From: Blastocatellia bacterium
Lineage (GTDB): Bacteria > Acidobacteriota > Blastocatellia > UBA7656 > JADIYM01
Direction: 5' to 3'
Assembly (NCBI GenBank): GCA_021463145.1
Contig: JAJTWZ010000005.1
Span: forward strand, 62,001 to 126,000
DNA: 64,000 bases
How positions within the stretch are numbered: position 1 is the first letter of the stretch; each line of letters begins with the position of its first letter. Of this stretch, positions 6,014-8,063 are shown piece after piece. Position numbers and translations under genes: made by a program. The notes under the pieces are model-generated. The model saw nothing but the letters and a program-made list of their open reading frames with translations, ran no database searches and was not told the DNA's origin.

Positions 6014-7752
6014 GAGAGCACCATCTCCTGCGGTGCCGCGCCGGGCGGGACCATTGGGAACACGTTTTCCTCGGGGTCCACGAGGATGTCCATGACGACG
6101 ACTCCGGGGCGCGAGAGGCCCTCTTCGAGCACCCCGGCGAGATCTTCGGGACGGGTCGCGCGAAGTCCCGTGGCTCCATATGCCTCGGCCAGTTTCACGA
6201 AGTCGGGATTGCCGTCCATCGCGACTGCCGAGTAGACCCCTTCATAGAAGATCTGCTGCCACTGGCGGACCATTCCCAGATAGGAGTTGTTCATTACGAC
6301 GACCTTCGTGTTCGTCCCGTACAGAACCGCCGTCGAGAGCTCCTGGGCGGTCATCTGGAATCCCCCGTCGCCCACGAATGCGATGACGAGCTCGTCTGGC
6401 CGGCCGATCTGCGCGCCGATCGCGGCCGGGAGGCCGAAGCCCATCGTCCCGAGCCCCCCGGACGTGAGTGACTGACGCGGCTCTCCGAACCGGTAGTACT
6501 GAGCCAGCCACATCTGGTGCTGCCCTACGTCGGTCGCGACGATCGCCCTGCCATCGGTGATCCTCTGCAGCTCTTCGCAGAGCTGCTGCGGCTTGATGAC
6601 GTTCGCGGACGGCTCGTAGCGGAGCGGCGCGAAGTCCTTCCATTCCTGGATCCGCTCCCACCAGCCGGACAGGCGGCCCTCGGCGGACTCCACGCCGGAA
6701 GTCGCGGCGAGCAGACCTCGAAGGGCGTCGCGTGCATCGGCAACGAGCCCAACGTGAGGTCTGACGATCTTGCCGACCGACGCCGGATCGACGTCGATGT
6801 GGACGACCTCCGCCTTAGGCGCGAACTTGTTTACGAGACCCGTGACCCGGTCGTCGAAGCGGGCGCCGACCGATACGAGCAGATCGGCCTCCGATACTGC
6901 CATGTTCGCCCAGTACGTTCCGTGCATGCCGAGCATTCCAAGGCAGAGCGGATGGCCCGCGGGAAAGGCGCCGAGGCCCATCAGCGTGGGCGTCACCGGA
7001 ATGTCTAACCGCTCCGCGAGCGCCAGCAACTCCACTGCGGCATCCGCGTGAACGACGCCGCCGCCTACGTAGAGCACCGGCCGGCGCGCCGCGACGAGTT
7101 TCTCCGCGACGCGGCGCAAAACTGACGGGTCCGGCCTGCCGCTCGAGCGAAACCGCAGCGAAGGCGCCCAACCGGATGACGAACGCGTCGCCTTGTCGGC
7201 CGTGACGTCCTTGGGAATGTCGATGAGGACCGGGCCCGGCCGGCCGGAAGTGGCCACGTGGAACGCTTCGTGGACGATGTCGTCCAGGTCGCGAACGTCC
7301 CTGACGATGTAGCTGTACTTGGTGCACGGCCGGGTGATGCCGACCGTGTCGACTTCCTGGAACGCGTCGGAGCCGATCATCGGCCTGGGAACTTGGCCGG
7401 TGATGACGACCAGAGGTGTCGAGTCGCAGTAGGCATTCGCAATTCCGGTGACGGCGTTCGTCGCGCCAGGCCCGGAAGTAACGAGAACCACGCCGGGCTT
7501 GCCCGTCGCCTTCGCGTATCCCTCGGCCATGTGGACCGCGCCCTGCTCGTGACGTACCAGGACGTGATTCAACTCGGCTCGCATAGCAGCGAGTTCGTCG
7601 TAGACGTGAAGCACGGCTCCGCCCGGGTATCCGAAGACGGTGTCGACGCCTTCGGAGACGAGCGCCTCGCACAGGAGGCGGGCGCCGCGGACGAGTTCCC
7701 TTTCGGACGCCGCCAGTCCCGCGGCGATTGGCTGTGATGCGGATGCTGTCAT
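6010..7752 (-). CDS. ilvB: Acetolactate synthase large (catalytic) subunit
   Basis: 580 residues; ThDP-dependent condensation of pyruvate with pyruvate or 2-ketobutyrate, the first common step of branched-chain amino acid synthesis. The catalytic Glu lies in [15 protein letters not shown]; the ThDP/Mg motif runs from [13 protein letters not shown] to [12 protein letters not shown]; the FAD-associated RFDDRVTG is present. The start is the ATG at 7752, preceded by GAAGGG. A longer frame with a TTG start would run into the terminator U-tract and is rejected. It is the first structural gene after the attenuator, and its stop overlaps the start of the ACT-domain reading frame, where the regulatory subunit gene is expected. 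Confidence 0.96.
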
Positions 7753-7768: not shown

Positions 7769-7809
7769 AAAAAAAGAAAAAGGCCGCCCCCCTTTTACGG
7801 GTGACGGCC
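7769..7809 (-). terminator. ilv attenuator terminator
   Basis: Read on the minus strand, GGCCGTC (7803-7809) pairs with GGCGGCC (7782-7788), including one U-G pair. The loop contains a run of G residues, and the hairpin is followed at once by U5CU7 (7769-7781). This is an intrinsic terminator placed about 17 bases before the ilvB start. Confidence 0.85.
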
Positions 7810-7851
7810 TGTGCATACACGAAGTGTTCGCTAAAGTGTGGCCGTCACCCG
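7798..7851 (-). promoter_or_regulatory. ilv attenuator antiterminator hairpin
   Basis: A perfect 12-base inverted repeat, CGGGTGACGGCC (7840-7851 in mRNA sense) and GGCCGTCACCCG (7798-7809), with a 30-base loop. The 3' arm is the same segment that forms the 5' arm of the terminator, so the two structures exclude each other. The leader peptide's stop codon lies in the 5' arm. A ribosome at the stop would block this hairpin and allow termination. A ribosome stalled upstream on Val/Ile/Leu codons would leave it free and allow read-through. Confidence 0.85.
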
Positions 7852-8003
7852 GTGGGACTCGCTACGATGAGCCCGCTAATGGCGATGACTACTACTACAG
7901 CGACCGGGACAACGAGCGAGACGGCGGCGCCGCCGCGGACGAAGCGTGGAGCTTCGCCGGACAGGGCGCGGTCGATCGGACTCGTTTGCAGGTTGCGTTC
8001 CAT
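7845..8003 (-). CDS. ilvL: ilv leader peptide (attenuation)
   Basis: A 52-codon open frame from ATG 8003 to TGA 7845. Its last 24 residues contain 13 Val, Ile or Leu (core LVVPVAVVVVIAISGLIV, codons between about 7916 and 7863), including four consecutive valines. This resembles the composition and position of the E. coli ilv leader peptide, though the N-terminal part is longer. There is no strong Shine-Dalgarno; the predicted transcript starts only about 20 bases upstream. Its job would be to sense charged branched-chain tRNAs rather than to make a useful protein. The alternative, a small membrane protein, is possible because of the hydrophobic stretch, but the overlap of the stop codon with the hairpin arm favours attenuation. 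Confidence 0.8.
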   Translation of the reverse strand: MERNLQTSPIDRALSGEAPRFVRGGAAVSLVVPVAVVVVIAISGLIVASPTG

Positions 8004-8032
8004 TGCTTGCGCGGCGATTGCGCCGGACGACC

Positions 8033-8063
8033 GTTATACCAGCGAACCGGTGGCAATAGGCAA
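8033..8063 (-). promoter_or_regulatory. Promoter of the ilv operon
   Basis: On the minus strand TTGCCT (8058-8063) and TATAAC (8033-8038) are separated by 19 bases, and the -10 carries an extended TGG just upstream. Transcription would begin near 8026, about 23 bases before the leader peptide ATG. Confidence 0.6.

Follow-up and report, generated by a model that had tools for sequence, protein, structure and literature searches.

A probable ribosome-mediated attenuator upstream of the ilv cluster in Acidobacteriota and related sites before other amino acid genes of the phylum

Attenuation of ilv genes through a leader peptide is a textbook mechanism in enterobacteria, and the E. coli thrABC leader contains Thr and Ile codons. 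T-boxes control ilv genes in other bacteria. The leader attenuators listed for E. coli ilvBN (ivbL) and ilvGMEDA (PMC1183508) consist of a leader rich in Val, Ile and Leu (V/I/L) codons, a terminator before the first ilv gene and two mutually exclusive hairpins. For ilvB, leader-peptide attenuation has also been described from Actinobacteria (PMC1262725) and from Corynebacterium (PMC10272879), and it has been proposed for the ilvB-OMG RNAs of several phyla (PMC10272879). Resemblance to an attenuator is not proof, as illustrated by Streptomyces coelicolor, where the candidate leader codons of ilvB could be altered without effect according to work cited in PMC1262725. Acidobacterial attenuators are mostly without assigned functions (PMC2965389), and a survey of leader-gene spacing that covers Acidobacteria describes, in the part of the article available, no attenuator there (PMC4833913). 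A literature search for leader peptides or attenuation in Acidobacteria or Acidobacteriota found no such system; a survey from 2010 (Lopatovskaya et al.) may hold earlier predictions.

Here we describe an element upstream of an ilv cluster in the window, i.e. the whole stretch of 64,000 nucleotides that was analysed. Judged by its sequence and by its relatives, this element very probably controls the cluster by classical ribosome-mediated transcription attenuation. The features are, in the direction of transcription:

8063-8033, minus strand: possible promoter, TTGCCT (8063-8058) and TATAAC (8038-8033) with a 19-nt spacer, from direct reading.
8003-7845, minus strand: leader ORF, 52 codons plus TGA, MERNLQTSPIDRALSGEAPRFVRGGAAVSLVVPVAVVVVIAISGLIVASPTG, from ORF reading, V/I/L density and counterparts in relatives.
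7922-7863, minus strand: control-codon tract, leader residues 28-47, from codon reading.
7851-7840, minus strand: arm 1, 5' arm of the antiterminator, CGGGTGACGGCC, enclosing the leader stop codon, from reading and covariation with arm 2.
7809-7798, minus strand: arm 2, common to antiterminator and terminator, GGCCGTCACCCG, from reading and covariation.
7792-7782, minus strand: arm 3, 3' arm of the terminator, GGGGGGCGGCC, from reading and covariation with arm 2.
7781-7769, minus strand: U-tract of the intrinsic terminator, TTTTTCTTTTTTT, from reading.
7752-6010, minus strand: ilvB, the gene with which the cluster begins, for the large subunit of acetohydroxyacid synthase (Pfam TPP_enzyme N/M/C).
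6013-4676, minus strand: ilvC (KARI) with an N-terminal extension in a single frame (Pfam KARI_N and KARI_C from residue 121).
4660-3698, minus strand: ilvE-like class IV aminotransferase (Pfam).
3405-2374, minus strand: ilvA-like threonine dehydratase (PALP; Pfam).

The controlled cluster is ordered ilvB-(ilvN)ilvC-ilvE-ilvA, where the PALP dehydratase is taken to be IlvA from its gene context. About 115 residues precede ilvC in frame without an intervening stop, as KARI_N begins only at residue 121. A Pfam search of this extension matched no domain; it may resemble an IlvN/ACT-type regulatory domain, and an IlvN-IlvC fusion is possible. Between ilvE and ilvA lies a short LysR-type HTH segment (Pfam HTH_1; 3690-3402, minus strand), and elsewhere in the class the attenuator module is also carried by complete LysR genes that start similarly (L179, L183).

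The leader begins with ATG at 8003 and ends with TGA at 7847-7845, upstream of ilvB. The sequence-only reading had described a 52-codon frame with a V/I/L-rich end, a perfect 12-base hairpin with the leader stop in its 5' arm, and a mutually exclusive terminator with a U-tract just before ilvB, and each of these was confirmed. V/I/L residues make up 13 of the 24 in the stretch SLVVPVAVVVVIAISGLIVASPTG, and the best 24-residue stretch of the leader contains 14, a value equalled in none of 4000 dinucleotide shuffles. The control-codon tract includes GTA GTA GTA at 7898-7890 (minus strand), and its last control codon, GTA at 7865-7863, is located 11 nt upstream of arm 1; GTA accounts for 4 of the 10 Val codons of the leader vs 7% in ten window genes. 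No clear Shine-Dalgarno sequence was found upstream of the leader ATG. The promoter proposed earlier stood in part: hexamer-like boxes can be read, but a sigma-70 scan did not detect them, and the promoter is uncertain and at best weakly consensus-like.

Arms 1 and 2 form a perfect 12-bp complement, which was matched by 0 of 300 shuffles, and the pairing of arms 2 and 3 contains one A-G mismatch. The resulting antiterminator and terminator exclude each other, and both are placed before the first structural gene. The ilvB ATG at 7752 follows the U-tract by 17 nt and is preceded by a ribosome site, GAGAAGGG. Since leader and ilvB share one transcript, with 92 nt from leader stop to ilvB start, the leader might couple translation rather than transcription, by reinitiation or by exposing the ilvB ribosome site, and reinitiation at leader peptides has been proposed for many phyla including Acidobacteria, at about 10-16 nt (PMC4833913). 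However, 92 nt is far above this optimum, the hairpin runs into a U-tract and the ilvB ribosome site is left free, so that coupling of translation is very unlikely.

Folding predictions fit transcription attenuation. The free RNA was predicted to fold into the antiterminator, and when arm 1 was masked, mimicking a ribosome at the stop codon, the predicted fold became the terminator. For the window, the predicted stabilities are -29.5 kcal/mol for the antiterminator alone vs -16.1 kcal/mol for the terminator. As the antiterminator is the more stable structure and the terminator carries a mismatch, termination would depend on good translation of the leader. With the stop codon inside arm 1 and the last control codon just upstream, it is the geometry that argues for coverage of arm 1 by a ribosome at the stop codon but not by a stalled one. 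A conserved upstream segment that could protect arm 1 by pairing was sought among perfect matches and none was found, the longest upstream complement in this search being 5.5 nt vs 4.8 nt in shuffles. Because no such protector was found in this search and the free RNA is predicted to adopt the antiterminator, an untranslated leader should lead to read-through.

In the mechanism that we propose for the window, well-charged Val, Ile and Leu tRNAs would let the ribosome get to the leader stop with its footprint over arm 1; arms 2 and 3 would then form the terminator and transcription would stop before ilvB. If one of these tRNAs were scarce, the ribosome would stall within the control tract at a point that leaves arm 1 free, the antiterminator would form from arms 1 and 2 and RNA polymerase would continue; if the leader were not translated at all, read-through would likewise be expected.

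The locus shares the V/I/L leader, the terminator before the first ilv gene and the two exclusive hairpins with E. coli ilvBN and ilvGMEDA, but differs from them in that the stop codon lies inside the antiterminator arm and that no conserved protector stem was found. The predicted read-through of an untranslated leader would also set it apart from the E. coli trp design. With the ilvB systems of Actinobacteria, Corynebacterium (ilvB-II) and the ilvB-OMG RNAs it has in common a uORF rich in branched-chain codons together with a terminator and an antiterminator (PMC1262725, PMC10272879). However, the ilvB-II uORF of Corynebacterium usually has 15-17 aa compared with the 52 codons here, the actinobacterial and ilvB-OMG motifs differ in RNA sequence and phylum, and the acidobacterial module also occurs before thr, phe and cys genes. 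In the trp attenuators of Actinobacteria a complementary triple, gGCC-rGCy-GGCC, is conserved between distant species (PMC1262725) and resembles the GGCC/GGCC of the present module; these attenuators serve another control amino acid and operon, and this is a likeness without demonstrated homology.

IlvB was located at 56 places in 54 genomes of the class, and the upstream DNA was read for nearly all of them. At 36 of the 56 loci, the window included, a V/I/L-rich leader ends at the antiterminator arm and is followed by a terminator hairpin with U-tract; at the remaining 20, no attenuator is present directly upstream. In three genomes of the latter group (G081, G142, G149) the same module is found 5-7 kb upstream of ilvB, on the strand of that gene, where it precedes gltB, and gltB through ilvB presumably form one operon there. 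Three layouts were observed. The stop codon is inside arm 1 in most families, arm 1 lies about 12 nt upstream of the stop in family f6 (GCTCGCCG), and it lies just upstream of the stop in family f4 (GGTGGCT). In each layout, arm 1 should be covered by a ribosome that has reached the stop codon.

At codons -24 to -5, V/I/L codons make up 51% in the leader frame vs 26% and 7% in the other frames, a measure that is inflated because the loci were partly picked by V/I/L content, which affects neither codon choice nor covariation. V/I/L codons are absent at codon -1 (0%, 36 loci) and scarce at codon -2 (11%), which points to clearance before arm 1. GTA accounts for 45-50% of the leader Val codons vs 10% in ilvB (45% vs 10%, p 7e-25), and A-ending codons in the other four-fold boxes of the leaders reach 21% (compared with GTA, p 1.5e-7); attenuators are known to have a biased choice of control codons (PMC1183508). 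The bias lends indirect support to translation of the leader and to regulation through its codons.

The C-terminal half of the leader peptide is hydrophobic enough for a membrane segment, and the ORF could encode a real small membrane protein, in which case ilvB would be regulated independently and the hairpins preceding it would be an ordinary terminator. The amino acid order is, however, not conserved among the leaders (mean identity 15%) while V/I/L codons are kept, and Phe (3%) and Met (0.7%) of the control-codon tract are low for membrane segments in general. The GTA bias and the position of the stop codon in a covarying arm also speak against a membrane protein, as do homologous modules that hold Thr, Phe/Tyr or Cys tracts instead. 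The short distance from terminator to ilvB leaves no room for another promoter. We regard this explanation as extremely unlikely.

Covariation was analysed for the attenuator stems in two alignments. In the first, 26 sequences from the class, paired cells reached 83.9% for the antiterminator, while slid partners gave 19-48%, and 32 double-change cells were counted vs 10.8 after shuffling (0/500). The corresponding values for the terminator were 92.9% paired cells and 39 double-change cells vs 13.3 (0/500). Changes of TGA to TAA or TAG in arm 1 are matched by C to T in arm 2, the pair being G-C in 15 and A-U in 7 sequences. The second alignment comprised 34 sequences from other classes, mostly upstream of other genes, at sites detected by a model into which the terminator stem, but not the stem of arms 1 and 2, had been built; here the terminator had 29 double-change cells vs 6.0 shuffled (0/500) and the antiterminator 12 vs 5.7 (1/500). 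The shuffle control does not remove kinship of the sequences; the slid controls retain it and agree. Sequence and comparison show that the two stems and the choice of codons are under selection. The comparison with relatives that the sequence-only reading had proposed thus came out in its favour, with covarying arms and V/I/L codons kept in no fixed order, and conservation of the leader frame and of both stems supports its reading as ribosome-mediated attenuation. In alignment columns 40-51 of the second set, arm 1 outside the class often reads GGRTGATGTAGCC, i.e. TGA followed by a close TAG in another frame.

The terminator might instead be governed by a tRNA-sensing T-box, a riboswitch or a bound protein, leader translation being incidental. 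Elsewhere, ilv genes are indeed under T-boxes. Others are under ppGpp riboswitches (PMC10272879). However, an Rfam scan of the window found no family at threshold and nothing relevant at a relaxed E-value, the Rfam leader families likewise giving no match at gathering or relaxed thresholds, and conserved sequence among the relatives is confined to the three arms and the surroundings of the stop codon, with no aptamer-like core. Control of this kind is therefore most improbable.

The distribution of the attenuator module was studied with two models. R1 was built from the ilvB sites of the class and used to scan genomes of the class (162) and of the phylum (396). Among 80 named IlvB loci, of which nearly all belong to other phyla, it had no match. 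R2 was built from 34 sites, all outside the class, and its single match in the whole 5.28-Mb genome of the window was the window site (E 1.1e-10). As controls for R2 served 40 genomes reached via named IlvB loci, one of which (L105) is titled Acidobacteria and had no R2 match. Half of the 40 had matches at E<=0.01, the best at 1.5e-6, and six of the seven matches inspected resemble ordinary terminators without a convincing leader. The specificity of R2 is moderate. As the control matches were mostly bare terminators, phylum matches above E of about 1e-4 were not counted on score alone. Several weak matches look like plain terminators, among them L195, L199, L243, L245 and L248, while L191, L193, L236, L238, L239, L247 and L250, also weak, are credible by leader and gene rather than by score.

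Beyond sites directly before ilvB, the module with a V/I/L leader was found before cimA (citramalate synthase; L174, L178, L181, L226, L247), ilvA (threonine dehydratase; L180, L210, L212), ilvD-ilvB (L214, L215, L217, L218) and ilvN-ilvB (L213, L220, L223). Thr leaders with the module (L219, TITRTTITTGDHSSG; L239, MTRTTTITTGDSSGG; L228, L231, L238, L250) precede genes for a bifunctional aspartokinase-homoserine dehydrogenase (thrA-like) or for homoserine dehydrogenase-threonine synthase; the latter assignment, like those of ilvD and ilvN, is a reading of the translations. The Thr/Ile leaders L219 and L239, before aspartokinase-homoserine dehydrogenase, are similar in composition to the leader of E. 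coli thrABC but differ in having the RNA arms of the acidobacterial module. Phe/Tyr leaders (L188, FNNFSFYFYFSG; L177, FFRTFGFYYFYLLDG; L191, L193) are followed by genes for prephenate dehydratase (pheA), DAHP synthase or chorismate mutase, and a Cys leader, CPICSCCC, occurs with the module (L236:501-604) before a siroheme synthase N-domain gene (cysG).

By sequence, the window's site is one member of a phylum-wide module that would serve several amino acids. We lean, with reserve, towards a leader-peptide attenuator regulon throughout the Acidobacteriota, derived from one RNA module (GGRTGAYG / GGCCRTCAYCC / GGRTGAYGGCC-U) with the stop inside arm 1. With only the control codons exchanged, this module would have been put to use for genes of branched-chain amino acids, threonine, aromatic and sulfur amino acids, and perhaps for those of glutamate synthase and LysR as well.

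Several further sites were recorded. Modules with mixed Ile/Val/Leu/Thr leaders precede gltB (glutamate synthase) at L173, L175, L176, L184, L185 and L189 and also at L190, L194, L196, L201, L203 and L206. At L182, L186 and L187 the module with a Leu-rich leader is followed first by a small cupin-like ORF and then by an MqnD-like gene; an NCBIfam search of two proteins from these loci gave no match. At L209, L211, L224 and L240 a Leu-rich leader with the module stands opposite a convergent ilvB-ilvC pair, whose 3' end it faces, and no long ORF is found on the strand of the module between the two. In Nitrospira (L261), a terminator and a Leu-containing ORF, ATLTLASLLKTAVSP, precede a 2-isopropylmalate synthase gene, possibly a Leu attenuator outside the Acidobacteriota.

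In one genus (g16) of the class, five genomes encode the bacteriochlorophyll protein FMO (PF02327, E about 1e-85), which was absent from 14 control genomes. FMO occurs in Chlorobi and in Chloracidobacterium. Because it is present in a sister genus, the class is most likely Blastocatellia of the Acidobacteriota, and the earlier assumption of an acidobacterium holds on the strength of FMO and general knowledge. That the locus would extend classical attenuation was borne out as to range, i.e. to the Acidobacteriota, but not as to principle, since leader control of ilvB is known or proposed in several phyla; the mechanism is of a known kind, here in a phylum for which no report was found.

One acidobacterial attenuator, and related sites across the phylum, would herewith be given a function. 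Acidobacteriota are abundant in the environment and hard to culture, and their amino acid regulation would become predictable from genomes. Across the sites, which form a natural set, a single RNA switch appears fitted with various control codons, and with its Val codons shifted to GTA this set may help to test theories on how attenuators choose their codons (PMC1183508). For specialists, part of the interest lies in the apparent reuse of a single RNA module throughout the phylum.
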